From positions 248,001-312,000 of the forward strand of contig NZ_LDZY01000002.1 in NCBI RefSeq assembly GCF_001029285.1: a DNA stretch of 64,000 nt, in the 5' to 3' direction. Below, piece after piece: positions 2,012-27,600 of the stretch. Source of the stretch: Desulfosporosinus acididurans. GTDB lineage: Bacteria > Bacillota > Desulfitobacteriia > Desulfitobacteriales > Desulfitobacteriaceae. The first letter of the stretch is position 1, and every line of letters starts with the position of its first letter. A program made the position numbers and the translations under genes. A model generated the notes under the pieces. That model worked only from the letters and a program-made list of their open reading frames with translations, was not told the DNA's origin and did no database searches.

Positions 2012-2215
2012 CTATTGTTTATATTGAGGTTCTTGTTGTTGAATGTATTGCTCTCTGCCTTTTAAAACGGTAAGAGCAGAATCAAAGGTTTGGGCAAGTT
2101 GTTCAAAGGTCTTTTTTGCTTCCTGATCTTGGGTTTCTAAAGCAAATGTTTTCATGGTTGCTGCTGCGCTTTGAACTGTAGCAATCGCTTGTGTCATTTG
2201 TGTTCCAACAGTCAT
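2012..2215 (-). CDS. DUF1657 small protein, last gene of the spoVA-type operon
   Basis: A 67-residue helical protein of the DUF1657 family, which in spore formers is found in and around spoVA operons; its biochemical role is unknown. It starts MTVGTQMTQ and is clearly paralogous to the product of 5044-5250 (MTVASQVKQ), so the operon is bracketed by two DUF1657 genes. A strong AAGGAGGTGATG ribosome-binding site precedes the ATG. It lies 92 bases downstream of spoVAE and ends in a shared terminator at 1965-1996. Confidence 0.85.
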   Translation of the reverse strand: MTVGTQMTQAIATVQSAAATMKTFALETQDQEAKKTFEQLAQTFDSALTVLKGREQYIQQQEPQYKQ

Positions 2216-2307
2216 TTTCTCATCACCTCCTTATAAAATGTTCAAAGGCTAAGTACACTAAGGCCCCACAGAGTTTTGTAAAAATTCTTGTATGCTTGCT
2301 TTAGTTC

Positions 2308-2661
2308 TTACCCTTTAGGCCTAAAAATAAGTGCTCCCATGAAGCCAAAGATGATCGCCGCCGATATTCCTGCACTTGTAACTTCAAATATGCCCGTAAG
2401 GACTCCGATGGGACCCACTCCCGCATATTCATTCAACGCTCCTTTGACCAGGGAATTTCCGAAACTGCTGATCGGAATAGATGCGCCGGCACCGGCAAAT
2501 TTAATCAGAGGATCGTAAAGACCCAGCCCTCCAAGTATTGCTCCAACTACAACTAAAGCACATGTTGTATGAGCAGGAGTTAGTTTAAGCCCATCTAATA
2601 AGAGCTGTCCGATGACACAAATGCCTCCTCCGATCAGAAAAGCCCAGAGAAATTTTTCCAT
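2308..2661 (-). CDS. spoVAE: Stage V sporulation protein AE (SpoVAEb type)
   Basis: A small integral membrane protein of 117 residues with several hydrophobic segments (about 5-25, 30-50, 60-85, 92-112), a subunit of the SpoVA channel that moves dipicolinic acid into the developing spore and out on germination. The ATG at 2661 is chosen because AAGGAG lies about nine bases upstream; the longer frame from 2685 would overlap spoVAD and add an unlikely MNYKERGT leader. It follows spoVAD with a 13-base gap. Confidence 0.9.
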   Translation of the reverse strand: MEKFLWAFLIGGGICVIGQLLLDGLKLTPAHTTCALVVVGAILGGLGLYDPLIKFAGAGASIPISSFGNSLVKGALNEYAGVGPIGVLTGIFEVTSAGISAAIIFGFMGALIFRPKG

Positions 2662-2674
2662 TGTACCGCGCTCC

Positions 2675-3679
2675 TTATAGTTCAATACTTACTGCGTGAG
2701 CAACACAAGGAATACTTTCCTTTTGCTGAAAGGACATAGGGGATAATAAGGCCCCTGTAGCAACAACTAAAAGCTTCTTTAAGTCGCCTTTTCTCATTCG
2801 CTTTAAGAAATGTCCAAAGGTTGTTGTCGCTGCACAGGCACATCCGCTTCCTCCTGCTAAAACGACAGGCTGGTCTTCTTTATAGATTAGAATTCCGCAA
2901 TCTGTAAAAATTTCTTCCGGTATTTCTAAACCATGTTTTTTTAATAAGTCACCGGCGATCCTATGTCCAACTCTGCCCAGGTCACCGGTAGCGATGACAT
3001 CATAATAGGATGGTTCTCTGTTTAAGTCTCTAAAGTGAGCTTCAATCGTATCTACTGCTGCCGGTGCCATGGCAGCCCCCATATTAAAGGGGTCGGACAA
3101 TCCCATATCGATAACTCTGCCAATGGTTGCCGACGTAACTTTTGGGCCTTCTCCCTGATCGGATACTAAAGCCGCTCCAGCCCCTGTAACGGTCCATTGT
3201 GCTGTAGGAGGCTTTTGAGCCCCGTATTCCGTGGGGTATCGGTATTGCTTTTCTGAGGCAGCATTATGGCTCGACGTACATACAAGAACATGTTTGGCAA
3301 ATTTGCTGTCGACAAGCTGAGCGGCCAGGGCTAAGCCTTCCATTGAGGTTGAACAGGCGCCATAAAGCCCGAGAAAAGGAACTCCGAGAGTGCGCGCTGC
3401 AAAACTGCTGGGGACTGTCTGATTGATTAAGTCTCCGCTTAATAAAAACTGAATATCTTCCTTTTTCAATGCTGCTTTTTTAATCGCTAACTCAGAAGCC
3501 TGTTCTTGCAGTTTTCGTTCAGCCTTTTCAAAGCTTTCTTGTCCCAGCCATATATCCTCGTGAAGAAGATCGAAATCGTCGGCTAATGAACCACGGGCTT
3601 CATGAGGCCCGCCGACAGCAGCCGAAGCAATTATGGTAGGTTTGGAATCAAAAATCCATGACTGATGACCATGCAACAT
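2675..3679 (-). CDS. spoVAD: Stage V sporulation protein AD
   Basis: A 334-residue thiolase-fold protein matching SpoVAD, the soluble dipicolinate-binding component of the SpoVA channel in the spore inner membrane. The sequence opens with SWIFDSKPTIIASAAVGGP, and the thiolase-like cysteine is Cys109 in GACSTS; known SpoVAD proteins bind DPA rather than catalyse condensation. The ATG follows the spoVAC TAA with no gap (TAAATG), implying translational coupling. Length matches the family. Confidence 0.95.
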   Translation of the reverse strand: MLHGHQSWIFDSKPTIIASAAVGGPHEARGSLADDFDLLHEDIWLGQESFEKAERKLQEQASELAIKKAALKKEDIQFLLSGDLINQTVPSSFAARTLGVPFLGLYGACSTSMEGLALAAQLVDSKFAKHVLVCTSSHNAASEKQYRYPTEYGAQKPPTAQWTVTGAGAALVSDQGEGPKVTSATIGRVIDMGLSDPFNMGAAMAPAAVDTIEAHFRDLNREPSYYDVIATGDLGRVGHRIAGDLLKKHGLEIPEEIFTDCGILIYKEDQPVVLAGGSGCACAATTTFGHFLKRMRKGDLKKLLVVATGALLSPMSFQQKESIPCVAHAVSIEL

Positions 3680-4159
3680 TTACATCACACCCAATGCTCT
3701 TAACATTATGACGACTAATGAAACTACAAAGGCAGAAAAAACACCATAGACAATAACAGGCCCGGCTAATTTAAACATATTGCCGCCTACTCCGAGAACA
3801 AATCCCTCACTTCGGTGTTCAATAGAAGCCGAAGCTATGGTATTGGCAAAACCGGTCACAGGAATTATGGTGCCGGCTCCTGCCCATTGAGCGATATGAT
3901 CAAAAACGCCAAAACCGGTAAGCAAGACCGTGATTATAATAATAACTGCCCCAGTGGGATTTCCGGCATTCTCCTGGGAAAAATGATAATAGGTCATAAA
4001 AAACATTTGTATCCCCTGAGCAATGACGCAAATCAGACCTCCTACGAAGAAAGCCCTTACGCAGTTGAGAACAATAGGCCGCTTAGGCTCTCTGTCCTGG
4101 GCGAATTTCTGGTACTCCTGTTGAGTGGGAGACAATTTTTTCTTCTTTTTGTCGGACAT
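3680..4159 (-). CDS. spoVAC: Stage V sporulation protein AC
   Basis: A 159-residue membrane protein. The lysine-rich cytoplasmic N-terminus (residues 1-30) precedes hydrophobic segments at about 33-55, 68-90 and 128-155. It matches SpoVAC, the mechanosensitive-like channel subunit of the SpoVA DPA transporter. The start has AGAGGTG upstream. Order is DUF421 gene, spoVAC, spoVAD, spoVAE on the minus strand with very short gaps, so a single transcript is likely. No spoVAA, spoVAB or spoVAF is present, as in the second-type spoVA operons of Bacillus. Confidence 0.93.
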   Translation of the reverse strand: MSDKKKKKLSPTQQEYQKFAQDREPKRPIVLNCVRAFFVGGLICVIAQGIQMFFMTYYHFSQENAGNPTGAVIIIITVLLTGFGVFDHIAQWAGAGTIIPVTGFANTIASASIEHRSEGFVLGVGGNMFKLAGPVIVYGVFSAFVVSLVVIMLRALGVM

Positions 4160-4170
4160 GGTAACACCTC

Positions 4171-5028
4171 TTAATGTAATAAGTAAGGACGTAATTTATT
4201 AATAAGATGATCAAGCTTCTGAGAATTGCGGAGATACATACCTTTAGCGCTTTTGTTTTCCGTTTGCAAAGAAAAGGCTAAGAGGTCTGCCTGAATTTTT
4301 TCCAGGTTGGCATAGAGTAATTCCCTAACTTTAGGCTGGGGAAGTTCAACAGCATCGTTGAAGAGGTCAAGGAATAATTCGCCGGAGGAATCAACCTGGC
4401 AAATAAATACGTTCTCAAGAACTACTCCCATTTTGTCAAGTTCAGTTTTTAGCCAAGTTTGATTAAGTCCCAGGGAGGAAAGAGGTTCGGCAAGGATGTT
4501 CCCGTCCATAATAACGGTTTGAGGTTCAGCTTGAGGTGCCACCTTCTGTCCAACATCATGGGCAGTAATCGGCTTCTTGTCAGCTTTTAGATAAGCGTTA
4601 ACTTTACCGTTAGATTCCATTACAGCGAATTCAACATCAGTGAGGTTGAAAATATTTTTTGACCGTAGTTCGGCCAACAGGTCCTCTCCTGTCATCCGGA
4701 GCTGGAGAAGATTTTCTTCCATAATCTTTCCATGTTTAATTAAAACAGTTTCCTTTCCGTTAATAAACTCGTGAATTACCTGACTCTTGATACCAAGAAA
4801 ATCAAGGGCCAGCGGAAGAACAACCCAGGTTATTAAAACGACAAATCCCGAGCTCAGGTTAATAAGGTTTAAGGACATTAATGTTACCGCAACGGCTATA
4901 ATAATATAGGATATAAAATTAAAAGGTTTCACTTTAGTAATGTTGCGTTTTCCAATAAGCCGCATAGATAACCAAGCTATACAAAATAACGCGAGCGTTT
5001 TTAATATTAAATAAAGAGTTTCCTGCAT
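4171..5028 (-). CDS. DUF421 / YetF-like membrane protein
   Basis: A 285-residue protein with three N-terminal transmembrane segments (about 4-22, 38-55, 60-80), the RLIGKR motif at about 23-28 typical of DUF421, and a soluble C-terminal region with the GNILAEPLSSLGL stretch. About 70 residues after the usual DUF421 domain form a charged helical tail. Function is unknown. DUF421 proteins are a recurring partner of DUF1657 and spoVAC/AD/Eb, and here the gene sits between the first DUF1657 gene and spoVAC, supporting a spore-membrane role by association only. Confidence 0.85.
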   Translation of the reverse strand: MQETLYLILKTLALFCIAWLSMRLIGKRNITKVKPFNFISYIIIAVAVTLMSLNLINLSSGFVVLITWVVLPLALDFLGIKSQVIHEFINGKETVLIKHGKIMEENLLQLRMTGEDLLAELRSKNIFNLTDVEFAVMESNGKVNAYLKADKKPITAHDVGQKVAPQAEPQTVIMDGNILAEPLSSLGLNQTWLKTELDKMGVVLENVFICQVDSSGELFLDLFNDAVELPQPKVRELLYANLEKIQADLLAFSLQTENKSAKGMYLRNSQKLDHLINKLRPYLLH

Positions 5029-5043
5029 ACCTTACCCGCCTTT

Positions 5044-5250
5044 TTAATTGCCTTTGTATTGTGGCTCTTCAAATTCAAGGACCTTGATTCGATCTTCCAG
5101 ATCCTTAATGATCACATTAGTGATTTCTAAGGAATTATTATAAACGGACTGAGCATTTTCATTTTTTGCTTGAACGTTATAGGTTCTTAATGTACCTTGA
5201 ACTCCTTTTAAGGTTGCTAAGGTTTGCTTTACCTGAGAAGCAACTGTCAT
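5044..5250 (-). CDS. DUF1657 small protein, first gene of the spoVA-type operon
   Basis: A 68-residue helical DUF1657 protein (MTVASQVKQTLATL start) and the promoter-proximal gene of the operon. The frame extends to an ATG at 5259, but GGGAGGTGAT lies between the two candidates and the paralogue at 2012-2215 also begins MTV, so 5250 is chosen. The protein ends EEPQYKGN, and the paralogue ends QEPQYKQ, showing a conserved tail. A forespore sigma-G promoter would be expected upstream, but I could not find a convincing match in 5251-5370. Confidence 0.87.
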   Translation of the reverse strand: MTVASQVKQTLATLKGVQGTLRTYNVQAKNENAQSVYNNSLEITNVIIKDLEDRIKVLEFEEPQYKGN

Positions 5251-5371
5251 ACTTATCACCTCCCGAGAGTTATTATCTCTCTTGCTTTTTTTTTAATGCC
5301 TTAACAAAGCTGGAAAGTGAAGGCAGTTTGATATAGAAGTGGCATTGAGCCCTTGCCCAACTATGAGGATA

Positions 5372-5585: not shown

Positions 5586-5681
5586 GGTATAGTTCCTCCT
5601 TTTTGGAATCCGTGTTTTTTGACAGTTTATAGTCTAATGGATTTTAACCTAATATAGCTAAGTATGGTTCTAGATTGATCC

Positions 5682-5736
5682 AATTATGTAAGCAGCGGTA
5701 AAACCTTTTTCAAGTTTTACCGCTGCTTACATAATT
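5682..5736. terminator. 22-bp perfect inverted repeat downstream of sigK
   Basis: Two 22-base arms (5682-5703 and 5715-5736) are exact reverse complements around an 11-base loop. The structure starts 25 bases beyond the sigK stop codon on the minus strand. It has no long T-run, so it may act as a terminator, an mRNA-stabilising stem or an RNase III site. Confidence 0.75.
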
Positions 5737-5760
5737 AATAATCGTTAGCAATTTGCTAGA

Positions 5761-6510
5761 CTAGGGGAGGCTGTCTTTCATTTCCAGAGTTAAGGTCTGG
5801 ATGGCTCTTTTTTCAATTCGTGAGACGTAAGAACGGGATATCCCGAGAATATCGGCTATTTCTTGTTGTGAATGTTCGTTTTCTTCCAATAATCCAAATC
5901 TTAAATGAAGAACTTGACGGTCAAGAGGCGGGAGTTTTTTGACGTTTTCCAGTAATAGACGCTGATCTTCTTCGTCAGCAATTTGTTCGGGAATGGGGGT
6001 GGTATCAGCTGAAAGACTTTCTAAAATACTCAATTCGCCATCACTATTATCTTGACCAATGGGTGTATAGATGGACATTTCACCGCGGCGTTTTTTTAAG
6101 ATGCGAAAGTGCATTAGGATTTCGTTATTAATGCAGCGGGCTGCGTAGGTGCTTAACTTAGCTCCTTTTTTTAAATTAAAAGTATTAATAGCTTTAACTA
6201 AGCCAACAATACCGATGGAAAACAAATCCTCGGTTCTTTCTTCAGGACCTTCATATTTTTTGACAACATGAGCGACTAAACGTAAATTGTGCTCGATTAA
6301 TTTATTGCGAGCAGTTTCAATGCTCCTGCTGAGAGCTGTGTCTTCAGGAGAAGGGTTTGCGCGACTTGTCTCTAATACTTGTAGGTAGTGCAATTCTTCG
6401 TCTTTGTTAAGAGGATGTGGGAATGCGTTATTGTTGACATAGGAAACGAGCAGACTGGCGCCTTTTAGGACAGAGAGGGCAAAACCGACTAGAAGAGCCT
6501 GTAGAAACAT
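5761..6510 (-). CDS. sigK: RNA polymerase sporulation sigma factor K (pro-sigma-K)
   Basis: A 249-residue sigma-70 family factor for late mother-cell transcription. The hydrophobic N-terminus (residues 1-25) followed by LVSYVNNNAFP matches the membrane-anchored pro-sequence removed by SpoIVFB in Bacillus. Region 2 includes LIEHNLRLVAHVVKKYEG and EDLFSIGIVGLVKA; region 4 includes ISRSYVSRIEKRA. The gene is in one piece, with no skin-type insertion. Compared with my recollection of B. subtilis SigK, about 14 extra residues lie near 48-66, between the pro-region and region 2.1. The ATG at 6510 is chosen over 6528 because AAAGGAG overlaps the earlier one. Confidence 0.94.
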   Translation of the reverse strand: MFLQALLVGFALSVLKGASLLVSYVNNNAFPHPLNKDEELHYLQVLETSRANPSPEDTALSRSIETARNKLIEHNLRLVAHVVKKYEGPEERTEDLFSIGIVGLVKAINTFNLKKGAKLSTYAARCINNEILMHFRILKKRRGEMSIYTPIGQDNSDGELSILESLSADTTPIPEQIADEEDQRLLLENVKKLPPLDRQVLHLRFGLLEENEHSQQEIADILGISRSYVSRIEKRAIQTLTLEMKDSLP

Positions 6511-6518
6511 CCGTTTCA

Positions 6519-6553
6519 CTCCTTTCACATCAAGTTATCCTATGTGAAAGGAG
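6519..6553 (-). promoter_or_regulatory. Inverted repeat masking the sigK ribosome-binding site
   Basis: A perfect 12-base inverted repeat (6519-6530 and 6542-6553, 11-base loop) lies directly upstream of sigK. The arm nearest the gene contains the AAAGGAG ribosome-binding site at 6519-6525, so a transcript covering both arms would fold the site into a stem. Confidence 0.6.
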
Positions 6554-6563
6554 CAAAATTTGT
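6536..6563 (-). promoter_or_regulatory. Possible sigma-K-type promoter of sigK
   Basis: CATAGGATA at 6544-6536 fits the sigma-K -10 pattern (CATANNNTA), and an AC dinucleotide at 6563-6562 lies 17 bases upstream, as in the degenerate -35. Transcription would begin near 6528, inside the inverted repeat, leaving the ribosome-binding site free. The motif is short, so chance is possible. Confidence 0.4.
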
Positions 6564-6627
6564 GATTTAAAAGAATCTGGCAGTAATAATTATTTATTCA
6601 CTTAGTGCTTAGGAGCAAACTATAAAA

Positions 6628-6648
6628 GCTCCTGCTAAGCAGGAGCTC
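6628..6648 (-). terminator. Hairpin terminator after the small conserved protein gene
   Basis: AGCTCCTGCT / AGCAGGAGCT is a perfect stem with almost no loop, and TTTAT follows on the minus strand. It separates the upstream gene from sigK. Confidence 0.65.
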
Positions 6649-6661
6649 AATGAACGCTGTT

Positions 6662-7054
6662 TTAAGTTAAATTGAAAATAGTAAGTGTCTGTAATTTATT
6701 GCATTCCAGGTTGAGGACATCAGACAGGGAAATGTCCAAGACATTAGCTAAGGCAGCTATGTAAAAGAGCTGTTTACCCAATTCTGCCTCTATAATGTCT
6801 CTGCAGTTATCGCAGAGTTTCCCTTCGAGTTGGCTGTCTAAGAGGTCTTTTAGATCGGCAAGGCTTGCATCGGGGGGGATTGACTTCTTGTGCGCATTCA
6901 CTGAATGACAACCGCAATTGGTTACCGATTTGACAACGGCTCTGTTAACACGTGCTGAGGTTTCCTGGCCTTTGGACAGGATGTCCAAAATACTTTGGTG
7001 TCGGATTAACAGAGATTTCACGATATTTTGGAATTGGTCAGTGAGTTGTTCCAC
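6662..7054 (-). CDS. Conserved clostridial protein of unknown function (MazG-like helical)
   Basis: A mostly helical protein of 130 residues with a cysteine pair in the middle (CGCH) and another near LCDNCRDII, followed by a helical end. Similar short proteins are, as I recall, widespread in Clostridia and are sometimes described as MazG-like, but no catalytic residues are evident and I assign no function. The GTG at 7054 is preferred to the GTG at 7066, because AAAGGAGTGAGG abuts the earlier codon. It is transcribed divergently from carD from a strong promoter at 7084-7113. Confidence 0.7.
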   Translation of the reverse strand: MEQLTDQFQNIVKSLLIRHQSILDILSKGQETSARVNRAVVKSVTNCGCHSVNAHKKSIPPDASLADLKDLLDSQLEGKLCDNCRDIIEAELGKQLFYIAALANVLDISLSDVLNLECNKLQTLTIFNLT

Positions 7055-7083
7055 GAGTATCCTCACTCCTTTCTGCCTTTTCT

Positions 7084-7113
7084 ATTATAACGAGATGGTT
7101 AGGTCGTTGTCAA
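7084..7113 (-). promoter_or_regulatory. Sigma-A promoter for the minus-strand gene
   Basis: On the minus strand TTGACA (7113-7108) and TATAAT (7089-7084) are both perfect consensus hexamers with an 18-base spacer. The -35 is the mirror image of the carD -35 at 7146-7151, so the two promoters are divergent. Confidence 0.85.
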
Positions 7114-7145
7114 TTTTCGGGAGTCCAAGAGATCAAAAGGGAAAA

Positions 7146-7175
7146 TTGACAGGCTTAAGACTTGTGTGATATAAT
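7146..7175 (+). promoter_or_regulatory. Upstream sigma-A promoter of carD
   Basis: TTGACA, an 18-base spacer and TATAAT form a full-consensus promoter 59 bases before the carD start. Confidence 0.85.
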
Positions 7176-7184
7176 TTTAAAATT

Positions 7185-7213
7185 TTGACCGGGACATTGT
7201 AACTTGTTATAAT
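7185..7213 (+). promoter_or_regulatory. Second, proximal sigma-A promoter of carD
   Basis: TTGACC, a 17-base spacer and TATAAT lie 10 bases beyond the first promoter. The gene therefore has tandem promoters, the second leaving only a short leader before AAGAAGGGGGTGG and the ATG. Confidence 0.75.
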
Positions 7214-7233
7214 GTTAAGAAGGGGGTGGCTGA

Positions 7234-7716
7234 ATGTTTAATGTTGGTGATAAAGTTGTTTATCCAATGCATGGTGCCGGGATCATTGAATCCATTGAGG
7301 AACGGGAAGTTCTCGGTGAAATAAGCCAATATTATGTCATGCATTTGCCTGTGGGTAATATGAAGTTATTTATACCTTTAAAGAATGTTGAAAACTTGGG
7401 TTTGCGGCAAGTTATATCTCCGTCCATGGTTAAAGACGTCTTAGAGGTGTTAAAGACAAAAGACACGGCAACGACCCTAGCCTGGAATCGACGCTATCGT
7501 GCCAATCTGGAAAAGATTAAGAGCGGTCATAATATACTTTTTGAAGTAGCTAATGTAGTGCGCAGCCTTGCTCAAAGAGAAAGCGAAAAGGGACTTTCAA
7601 CCGGGGAAAAAAAGATGTATGAAAACGCTTGCCAGATCTTGATTAGTGAGCTTGTTCTGACGGAAGGATCTGAAGAGGCCGCGGTTAGGCAATGGGTTTC
7701 TAAAGCCCTGGCTTAA
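7234..7716 (+). CDS. CarD-family transcription regulator (CdnL-like)
   Basis: A 160-residue protein with an N-terminal CarD/TRCF RNA-polymerase-interacting domain (FNVGDKVVYPMHGAGII, residues 2-18, through about 65) and a helical C-terminal domain containing a conserved basic/aromatic patch (AWNRRYRANLEKI). This family binds the RNA polymerase beta subunit and stabilises open complexes, especially at rRNA promoters. The start has AAGAAGGGGG upstream. It is followed by yacL behind its own promoter, a common clostridial order leading into ispD-ispF. Confidence 0.92.
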   Translation: MFNVGDKVVYPMHGAGIIESIEEREVLGEISQYYVMHLPVGNMKLFIPLKNVENLGLRQVISPSMVKDVLEVLKTKDTATTLAWNRRYRANLEKIKSGHNILFEVANVVRSLAQRESEKGLSTGEKKMYENACQILISELVLTEGSEEAAVRQWVSKALA

Positions 7717-24607: not shown

Positions 24608-27600
24608 TTGCTAGACGTCAATAACTTCGACCGTATGCGTATCGGCTTAGCTTCCCCGGATATGATCCGAGATTGGTCCTATGGAGAAGTAAAGAAGCCT
24701 GAAACCATTAACTATCGGACCTTAAAGCCGGAACGGGAAGGATTGTTTTGTGAAAAGATCTTTGGTCCGACAAGGGATTGGGAATGTCATTGCGGAAAAT
24801 ATAAACGGGTCCGCTACAAAGGTATTGTCTGCGATCGCTGCGGAGTTGAAGTAACTCGATCGAAGGTTCGCCGTGAGCGGATGGGGCATATTGTTCTTGC
24901 TGCTCCCGTTTCCCATATTTGGTATTTTAAAGGGATTCCAAGCCGCATGGGTCTGCTTTTAGATATGTCACCCCGAGCTTTGGAAAAAGTCCTCTATTTT
25001 GTTTCCTACATTGTTACCGAGCCTGGGGATACTTCCCTCATGAAAAAGCAACTTTTGACTGAAACGGAATATCGTGAATACCGGGAGAAGTATGGTGATC
25101 GTTTTCAAGCAAGTATGGGTGCTGAAGCCATTAAACTTCTACTCGCAGAAATGGATTTAGATAAACTTAACGATGAGCTGCGCGGAGAACTGAAAGAGGT
25201 TTCCGGGCAACGGAAAATTCGCGCTATTCGTCGCTTAGAAGTCGTTGAGGCCTTTAAGCAATCAGGTAATCGTCCGGAATGGATGATTATGGATGTGGTT
25301 CCGGTAATCCCGCCTGAACTGCGGCCTATGGTTCAATTGGACGGCGGCAGATTTGCTACTTCAGACCTTAATGACCTTTACAGACGCGTGATCAACCGTA
25401 ACAATCGACTGAAGCGTCTTTTGGATTTAGGGGCTCCGGATATCATCGTTCGCAATGAGAAACGAATGCTCCAAGAAGCGGTTGACGCTCTGATTGACAA
25501 TGGGCGGCGTGGACGTCCAGTGACAGGACCGGGAAACCGTCCGCTGAAGTCTCTGAGCGATATGCTGAAAGGAAAACAAGGGCGTTTCCGTCAAAACCTT
25601 TTAGGAAAACGCGTAGACTATTCAGGACGTTCCGTTATTGTAGTTGGGCCAAACCTTAAATTGCATCAATGCGGCCTTCCTAAGGAAATGGCCTTAGAAC
25701 TCTTTAAACCCTTTGTTATGAAGAAGCTAGTTAATGAAGGGCATGCCCATAATATAAAAAGCGCTAAACGAATGGTTGAACGCGTACGTCCGGAAGTTTG
25801 GGACGTTTTGGAGGAGGTTATTACCGATCATCCGGTCCTCTTGAATCGTGCTCCGACCCTTCACCGTTTGGGAATTCAGGCCTTTGAGCCTAGCTTGGTT
25901 GAAGGACGTGCCTTACAGATCCACCCACTCGTCTGCACAGCCTATAATGCTGACTTCGACGGAGACCAAATGGCTGTTCACGTCCCATTGTCTGCAGAAG
26001 CTCAGTCCGAAGCACGTTTGTTAATGTTGGCCTCTCATAACATCTTAAATCCTAAGGATGGCCGGCCCGTACAAACTCCTACCCAGGATATGGTCTTAGG
26101 CTCCTATTATTTGACGATGGAACGACCGGGGGCTTTTGGTGAAGGAAAGATATTCAAAGACTTCGATGAAGCAGTTTTAGCCTATGATTCGGGTGAAGTT
26201 CATTTACAAGCGAAGATTCAGGTTCGCCGTGATGATGGACTTTTAGAGACAACAGTCGGTCGTCTGATCTTTAATTCTGTAATCCCTAAAGAGATCGGCT
26301 ACTTCAATGAAGTTGTCGGCAAAAAGGGTCTAGGTGAGATTGTGGCCAAGACCTACAGAATTGCCGGATATGAAGCAACCGCCGCATTGCTGGACGGACT
26401 AAAAAGTCAAGGATTTAAGTTTTCGACCCGTGCAGGGATGACTGTTGGTCTAATGGATATCACCGTTCCTGAAGCGAAAACGGAAATTCTCTCCAACGCC
26501 GACCAGGCCGTTGCCAAAACCGAATTGCAGTATCGCCGAGGTTTAATTACCGATGAAGAGCGTTATAATTTAGTTATTGATACTTGGGCTAAAGCGACTA
26601 AGACGGTCACCGATGCTTTGATGGAAAGCTTAAATCAGTTCAATCCTGTCTATATGATGGCAACTTCGGGAGCACGGGGTAATATTCAACAGCTCCGGCA
26701 GCTGGCCGGAATGCGGGGCCTTATGGCTGATCCGTCCGGACGTACCATTGAGTTGCCGATTAAGGCGAATTTCCGTGAAGGATTGACGGTTTTAGAATAC
26801 TTCATCTCCTCCCACGGTGCTCGAAAAGGTTTGGCTGACACAGCTCTAAGGACGGCAGACTCAGGATATCTGACCCGTCGTCTAGTCGATGTTTCTCAAG
26901 ATGTCATTGTACGTGAAGAGGACTGCGGAACAACGACTGGTATTATTGTGGAAGACATCAAGGATGGTCCGGAAATCATTGAGTCCTTGGAAGAACGACT
27001 CGTGGGCCGTTTCGTGCTGGAAGATTTATATCATCCTACAACAGGAAAACTTCTTGCTTCTCCAGATAAGGAGATGACGGAAGAACAAGCGAAAGAAATA
27101 GCTTCCGTGTTTGATTCCGTCGTTATTCGTTCCGTTCTGGCCTGTACTTCACGTTTTGGAGTTTGCAAGAAATGCTATGGACGAAACTTAGCTACAGGAC
27201 GTCCGGTTGAAATGGGCGAAGCAGTAGGGATTATCGCAGCGCAGTCCATCGGTGAACCAGGTACTCAGCTGACTATGCGGACATTCCATACCGGAGGTGT
27301 AGCCGGTGACGATATTACTCAAGGTCTTCCGCGGGTAGAAGAGCTTTTCGAAGCCCGTAAACCGAAAGGCCAAGCGATAATATCTGAAGTCAAAGGAAAA
27401 GTAGCGGTCAGTGAAGTTAAGGGACGCAGAGAAGTGGAGATCACTACCGAATCCGATGAACATGTAACTTATACAATACCTTATGGATCACGCCTCAGAG
27501 TTCGGGACGGGCAGATTGTTGAAGCAGGGGATGAACTGACAGAAGGAAGTATTAACCCCCACGATATGCTGAAGGTAAAGGGTCTGAGAGGGGTACAGGT

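Follow-up and report, generated by a model that had tools for sequence, protein, structure and literature searches.

A hairpin over the predicted -10 element and the Shine-Dalgarno sequence of sigK2 in Desulfosporosinus: a putative insulator against transcripts begun elsewhere

Introduction

Sigma-K drives late spore development, and its appearance must be confined to the proper time and cell. Known controls of sigma-K act on transcription, on excision of the skin element in some species, and on processing of the pro-protein. A locus of Desulfosporosinus acididurans raises the question of whether a sigK-type gene may also be controlled through its leader. In this 64-kb stretch of DNA, analyzed as a whole and referred to here as the window, an inverted repeat covers the Shine-Dalgarno (SD) sequence of the gene and overlaps what appears to be its own promoter. 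We asked what kind of element this repeat is, whether relatives keep it, and against what it might act.

Results

The window carries a second sigK

5761..6510, minus strand: sigK2, divergent pro-sigma-K paralog of 249 aa (profiles, tree)

The gene behind the leader had been called sigK in the first-pass annotation. Its place in the SigK subfamily holds (NCBIfam NF004471, PRK05803 subfamily; 278 bits, above the cut-off of 252), but profiles and a tree make it a divergent second copy rather than the canonical gene. It scores below the cut-off of the SigK equivalog TIGR02846 (252.5 versus 298.65 bits), which the canonical sigK of the same genome passes with 321.8 bits. That gene lies on another contig (G000:C5:243034-243774) and is 55% identical to the window copy. 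A 58-row tree with 12 K2 copies (the copy of genome G019 was not included) places the window copy and 11 others in one clade with support of 100/100. By best match, sigK2 is present in 13/29 genus genomes examined, with the G019 copy interrupted; the closest named SigK2 protein is that of Desulfosporosinus sp. FKB (99% identity). The N-terminus, LLVSYVNNNAFPHPL, resembles a pro-sequence. The interrupted copy, from Desulfosporosinus metallidurans OL (L048/L148; G019), has an internal stop; in its leader, part of the -10 region is gone and the stem is retained.

The canonical locus has features of its own. A 510-bp 3' part of canonical sigK is repeated ~33 kb away (G000:C5:209381-209899, L155) with 95% DNA identity, and a serine-recombinase fragment (Pfam Recombinase) lies immediately downstream of the intact gene (L154, G000:C5:243034-243774). 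The arrangement suggests a skin-type element that supplied a sigK 3' end of its own and left the gene uninterrupted. In relatives, sigK pieces lie on different contigs in G017 (C40 and C17) and G033 (C96 and C120) and ~23 kb apart on one contig in G036 (C40:2275-2457 and 25720-26082), as expected of skin-type interruption or contig breaks.

Directly downstream of sigK2, positions 2012-5259 (minus strand) encode DUF1657, YetF/DUF421, SpoVAC, SpoVAD, SpoVAE, and DUF1657, which is the make-up of spoVA-2mob, a mobile operon known from heat-resistant spores of Bacillus. Some of these matches adjoin sigK2 in L009/L038, and none were found in the examined flanks of L010 and L011/L039. sigK2 could serve this putative spoVA-2mob-like operon. 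Between the two, at 5688-5730, lies a 17-bp inverted repeat with a 9-nt loop (GTAAGCAGCGGTAAAAC), which at a guess is the sigK2 terminator; it is missing from the output of the terminator scan, its loop being longer than the scan allows, and its weak, sub-threshold Rfam matches look like chance.

The hairpin overlaps the predicted promoter and covers the Shine-Dalgarno sequence

6561..6565, minus strand: TCACA, -35-like element, 15 nt from ACATAGGATA (predicted)
6542..6553, minus strand: hairpin 5' arm, CTCCTTTCACAT, within the -35/-10 spacer and running into the -10
6536..6544, minus strand: CATAGGATA, -10 of the sigma-E/sigma-K type, from the 5' arm into the loop
6531..6541, minus strand: loop, AGGATAACTTG, containing most of the -10 element
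6528..6530, minus strand: transcription start of the own promoter, within the 3' arm (predicted from the -10 position)
6519..6530, minus strand: 3' arm, ATGTGAAAGGAG, including the Shine-Dalgarno AAAGGAG at 6525-6519

On the sense strand, the leader before 5761-6510 (minus strand) reads TCACA AATTTTG CTCCTTTCACAT AGGATAACTTG ATGTGAAAGGAG TGAAACGG ATG, with the start codon of sigK2 at 6510-6508 (minus strand); a GTG at 6528 opens the same frame too. The first-pass annotation had described a perfect 12-bp inverted repeat with AAAGGAG in its gene-proximal arm and a -10-like CATAGGATA at 6544-6536, and both are there: arms 6519-6530 and 6542-6553 show perfect 12-bp complementarity across an 11-nt gap, and the -10-like element begins in the 5' arm and continues into the loop. 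Within the sense transcript, G-U and A-U pairs extend this stem outwards to 17 bp, and 3 inner pairs are added. The fold of the 53-nt leader has an energy of -22.7 kcal/mol (z -6.7; 0/200 shuffles as good), and a longer, 138-nt piece gives z -3.1 (1/200 shuffles as good). Perfect arms of at least 12 bp with loops of 3 to 20 nt occur at 6 sites in the 64-kb window, compared with a mean of 0.27 and a maximum of 4 in 30 first-order Markov sequences. A search of 5600-7300 against Rfam returned nothing at the gathering score; the best overlapping match was BtsR1, on the opposite strand, at 24.1 bits versus 66.

We take CATAGGATA, of the CATAnnnTA type, to be a putative sigma-E/sigma-K -10, and TCACA to be a putative sigma-K-like -35. 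Transcription presumably begins near 6529, at the usual distance from a -10 at 6544-6536. The optimal sigma-K promoter spacing is given as 15 bp in PMC517825. Because CATAnnnTA occurs 31 times in the 64-kb window, the motif by itself is weak evidence. CATA lies 22 to 60 nt ahead of the start in 59/60 canonical same-order leaders and in 13/13 K2 leaders; its invariance in alignment A1 (below) follows from the leaders having been anchored on it. With the loose pattern GGA(C/T/A)A(A/G) for a SpoIIID-like box, a box was found just upstream, before the -35, in 48/59 canonical and 5/13 K2 leaders; the window sigK2 leader has none by this pattern. Sigma-E may read the same promoter as sigma-K.

A start near 6529 would change the predicted fate of the SD. 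No fold forms in the 22 nt between 6529 and the ATG, and 40 nt from 6529 give a weak fold that uses downstream sequence (-7.7, z -0.5). Folding supports the claim that the SD is hidden in long transcripts but accessible in those beginning at ~6529: across 13 K2 leaders, the mean predicted unpaired probability of the SD is 0.06 in the long and 0.77 in the short transcript. The predicted values for canonical leaders (n = 59) are 0.19 and 0.71. Leaders outside the order (n = 79) show a loss too (0.27 long versus 0.56 short, with 48 below 0.3 when long), so that the contrast between long and short transcripts is by itself not specific.

Pairing is conserved among sigK leaders of the order

In a first geometry, the 22 nt before CATA plus CATA formed the 5' segment, the stretch from the -10 end to the start codon formed the 3' segment, and the duplex energy was compared with 300 shuffles of the 22 nt. 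All 13/13 K2 leaders reached p<=0.05 (mean -19.7 versus -10.0 shuffled), as did 43/59 canonical same-order sigK leaders (mean -18.8 versus -12.0), with 16/59 missing this level, and 16/94 other leaders (mean -13.0 versus -11.5). The canonical rows exclude L144 (no CATA) and still contain the mis-anchored L036, L143, and L145. The 94 others remained after 10 loci with fragments or doubtful starts were removed by hand and 10 without CATA were dropped; one of them, L151, is a divergent copy whose genome belongs to the same family. Cognate arms also outperformed swapped arms, with 24/5000 (K2), 0/5000 (canonical), and 0/5000 (others) permutations reaching the observed value; because the other leaders pass as well, this test is confounded by composition or relatedness.

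A wider geometry was set against control gene starts (260 of 265, drawn from the window and some of the loci). At p<=0.05, it retrieved 12/13 K2 and 47/59 canonical leaders but 32/260 controls (Fisher 9e-10 and 6e-24, respectively, on rows that are not independent); at p<=0.0025, the counts were 5/13, 24/59, and 8/260. The controls themselves exceed expectation, with 32/260 at 0.05 (13 expected), 19 at 0.01, and 8 at 0.0025; nominal p-values are thus optimistic, ~2.5-fold at 0.05 and more at smaller values. Absence of the repeat from relatives had been named beforehand as grounds for abandoning the idea, and the pairing proved conserved. The window hairpin exceeds chance and is conserved.

The stem is maintained while its letters change

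Alignment A1 holds 40 of 42 non-redundant leaders (L135 and L036 excluded; L143, L145, and L048 dropped earlier), and some of its rows (e.g., L019) are one base out of register. When the 12-bp stem of the window was applied to it, 76.9% of cells were paired, compared with 40.5 to 58.8% when the partner was slid, and the covariation score was 0.284 versus at most 0.174; neither paired fraction nor score was reached by any of 500 shuffles. Some covariation measures do not discriminate. The number of double-change pairs (7) was matched by 37/500 shuffles and by slides -3 and -1, and the number of further pair types (20) by 9/500 shuffles and by slide -3 (20), while the 25 double-change cells were matched by 0/500 shuffles and compare with 22 at slide -1.

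Individual columns and leaders illustrate the changes. At pair 21-54, 16 rows have C-G and four have A-U (L018, L023, L124, and L219); pair 20-55 is U-A in ten, A-U in L034, and unpaired in 26; pair 22-53 is G-C in 27, G-U in 7, and A-U in 2. The SD pairing is retained in L011, in which an 11-bp anti-SD arm sits further upstream (TTCACTCCTTT pairing with AAAGGAGTGAA), and in L010, in which mismatches near the loop accompany a stem lengthened outwards. RNAalifold returned no consensus structure for A1, perhaps due to bulges and shifted arms. Within the K2 leaders alone (alignment A3; 11 of 13, excluding the near-copy L132 and the damaged L048), covariation was not beyond shuffles (74/500 reach it), and K2 leaders are rather uniform. 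Taken together, comparison of the leaders showed a predicted 5' arm between -35 and -10, a 3' arm over the SD, and pairing kept while letters change.

The element is largely confined to sigK genes

The pattern CATAnnnTA-AGGAG-ATG matches the genome at 13 places, and the reversed pattern at 2. At the 12 other sites, three of which have frames under 20 codons, anti-SD pairing reached p<=0.05 at one only, before a 4-codon frame; by look, the frames include putative Spo0A and YabG. A covariance model built from K2 leaders gave 40 matches at E<=1 in 40 genomes. The 23 matches at E<=0.01 represent 17 sites, namely 10 sigK2 and 7 canonical sigK, 6 of the matches being the same palindromes on the other strand. 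The 17 weaker rows (E 0.017-0.92) include three canonical sigK sites and one K2 reverse-strand match.

Similar layouts occur outside the order

Among 76 further leaders from 39 families, 22 reached p<=0.05 and 10 reached p<=0.01; the corresponding control counts were 32/260 and 19/260 (Fisher 0.001 and 0.16, respectively); at p<=0.0025, the counts were 8/76 and 8/260 (Fisher 0.013). The enrichment outside the order is modest. These leaders derive from 96 loci, 20 of which were dropped (no CATA, no confident start, or duplication); one, L192/G038, is from a same-order genome of another family, and the phylum sample consists of best-scoring matches and is not random. In nine cases taken from the top of the ranked list (L197, L331, L309, L301, L199, L211, L315, L213, and L233), the SD or its surroundings are part of a long stem, the 5' arm of which reaches up to CATA or runs into it, and the arm sequences are mutually unrelated; the stem of L197 has 19 pairs and one bulge. 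We read these striking cases as probable independent origins of one layout.

A third geometry compared 57 nt upstream with positions -26 to +9; the removal of duplicates had split the K2 and canonical rows of this set, which were not used. At p<=0.05, it retrieved 29/85 further leaders, 27/64 leaders from a protein search (mostly Bacilli), and 9/57 window genes; pairing near the start is therefore not confined to this order. In many Bacilli leaders, the arms pair a SpoIIID-like box with the start-codon region, which is another make of pairing. In L065, L078, L085, L095, L096, L101, L104, and other Bacilli, the box/-35 GGACAGACACA is nearly complementary to the start region TGTGTTTGTCC; these long duplexes are perhaps another way to hide a sigK start that is transcribed from upstream, or perhaps an effect of the conserved N-terminus. 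Many leaders in L044-L117 (mostly Bacilli) also contain a GGCnnnnGCC-like repeat near the expected start (e.g., TATAGGCAAAAGCCTA), which by eye falls short of the SD.

A codirectional gene lies upstream of sigK2

6626..6648, minus strand: intrinsic-terminator-like hairpin of the upstream gene, weak T run (terminator scan)
6662..7066, minus strand: upstream codirectional gene, 134 aa, possible source of read-through (frame)
7084..7113, minus strand: TTGACA-18-TATAAT, 12/12 sigma-70-type promoter of the upstream gene (promoter scan)

The product of 6662-7066 has no Pfam or NCBIfam match above cut-off. Between 6648-6626 and sigK2, the sigma-70-type scan found no promoter of that type on the minus strand. 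By crude frame picking, the nearest upstream frame is codirectional at 55/59 canonical and 7/13 K2 loci and divergent at 4/59 and 6/13, with pairing kept in all ten of the latter. Because of the divergent neighbor, read-through is not obvious at these ten loci, and protection against it leaves them unexplained unless other upstream starts exist. Of four codirectional upstream neighbors of canonical genes tested, one matches PilO and one a type IV leader peptidase (both above cut-off), one PilO just below it, and one DUF4911. A crude scan placed a terminator-like site in between at 24/59 canonical and 5/13 K2 loci and found none at 35/59 canonical loci. With K2 codirectional at only 7/13 loci and terminator-like sites at 24/59 and 5/13, context is no proof of insulation.

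Discussion

We are highly confident that the leader hairpin is a real, conserved element, and it most likely acts as RNA. On the sequence evidence, it is probably a promoter-nested, SD-sequestering insulator of sigK2 against transcripts begun elsewhere. Polymerase reading in, in this window most likely through the seemingly weak terminator that ends the 6662-7066 gene, would make a long leader, which would fold and block ribosome binding. Polymerase carrying sigma-E and/or sigma-K, the mother-cell sigma factors, would instead start at ~6529, inside the 3' arm, and since the start lies within that arm, the short leader would be unable to fold and would be translated. Synthesis of pro-sigma-K2 would then be restricted to the cell and the time in which its own promoter is active.

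The first-pass annotation had proposed an autocatalytic switch from the same anatomy, in which an early transcript begun upstream is poorly translated and a late sigma-K transcript from ~6528 is well translated, with a delay as the outcome. Sequestration and conserved pairing uphold that much of the proposal; that the upstream transcript is early and the inner one specifically due to sigma-K found no such backing, as no early promoter was found. Autoregulation of sigK is established in B. subtilis and counts for the switch, and there sigma-E and sigma-K share one overlapping mother-cell promoter, with SpoIIID. The output of a sigma factor can be tuned at the leader, as a study of the B. subtilis sigG leader shows (PMC5942855). 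Against the switch, no upstream sporulation promoter was identified, and where a SpoIIID-like box is present, one overlapping promoter may serve both sigma-E and sigma-K, in which case sporulation transcripts would escape the hairpin at all times. The codirectional, promoter-bearing neighbor, the lack of a detected sigma-70-type promoter in between, and the codirectional neighbors of 55/59 canonical genes fit protection from read-through better. We consider the switch unlikely.

The repeat might instead be a DNA operator at which a dimeric repressor or activator sits over the -10, with the RNA fold incidental. The window repeat is indeed perfect as DNA and overlaps the promoter, but many relatives have imperfect palindromes upheld by G-U pairs and bulges, and the seven outer pairs contain more U-G than C-A cells (55 versus 29), a difference to which base composition contributes. 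The SD also stays paired though its sequence and position shift, and unrelated sequences in other families give the same layout, which leaves an operator improbable. Composition might also produce the pairing as a by-product, a pyrimidine-rich promoter spacer happening to complement a purine-rich SD. Spacers are pyrimidine-rich, and the excess among controls (32/260 at p<=0.05 versus 13 expected) points the same way; however, spacer shuffles that keep composition pair far less, pairing is lost when the partner is slid, and the inner pairs GCAT/ATGC extend beyond the SD, so we hold this origin to be highly improbable. The strong stem would suit an intrinsic terminator or attenuator, yet a T run after the stem is absent on both strands (TGAAACGG; CAAAATTTG), and the hairpin is absent from the output of the terminator scan (loops of 3 to 8 only), making such a role very remote.

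Insulation by a nested promoter has known counterparts. A review of T4 (PMC3014915) describes long gene e transcripts in which the SD is sequestered and synthesis is cut 100-fold, whereas late promoters immediately upstream give transcripts that lack the 5' part and are well translated; soc, 49, and I-TevI carry the same kind of early-transcript hairpin, with a late promoter in the 5' strand. The logic is the same as that proposed for sigK2, which differs in that it encodes a sporulation sigma factor of a bacterium, has a promoter of the CATAnnnTA type, and is known here from its sequence. In B. subtilis sigG, according to PMC5942855, a large hairpin (20+ pairs), credited to Masuda 1988 and Sun 1991, was proposed to block translation of read-through from PspoIIG. 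That hairpin likewise belongs to a sporulation sigma gene and cannot form in the own-promoter transcript; sigma gene and promoter class differ, and there the upstream transcript is known. For the sigK hairpin, unlike in the sigG comparison, order-wide conservation is shown here by alignment. The same paper describes a 5-bp sigG "RBS hairpin" that forms in the gene's own transcript and dampens expression 2-4 fold (Mearls 2018, PMC5942855); it too occludes the SD in a sporulation sigma leader and is predicted in relatives, whereas the sigK2 own transcript should lack the 5' arm. We see no relation by descent between the sigK2 hairpin and the T4 gene e or sigG devices. IS10-type transposases are protected by an inverted repeat that folds only when transcription comes in from outside the element; those repeats belong to mobile-element ends and are unrelated to sigK2. 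A literature search of limited scope found no report of a sigK leader hairpin, and one joining Desulfosporosinus, sigK, and sporulation found nothing. The kind of device is thus known (T4 lysozyme, sigG read-through), and we found no earlier report of it at sigK in that limited search.

The hairpin resembles a safety lock placed on a cell-fate switch. More tentatively, insulation by a promoter within a hairpin might be a recurrent, independently evolved sigK lock across Clostridia and perhaps Bacilli, under which only mother-cell-initiated sigK mRNA would be translatable. If the insulation reading is true, translatability from the own promoter only would add a translational layer to sigK control and would explain why sigK tolerates codirectional genes directly upstream, and a phage-type design would become testable in cell differentiation.
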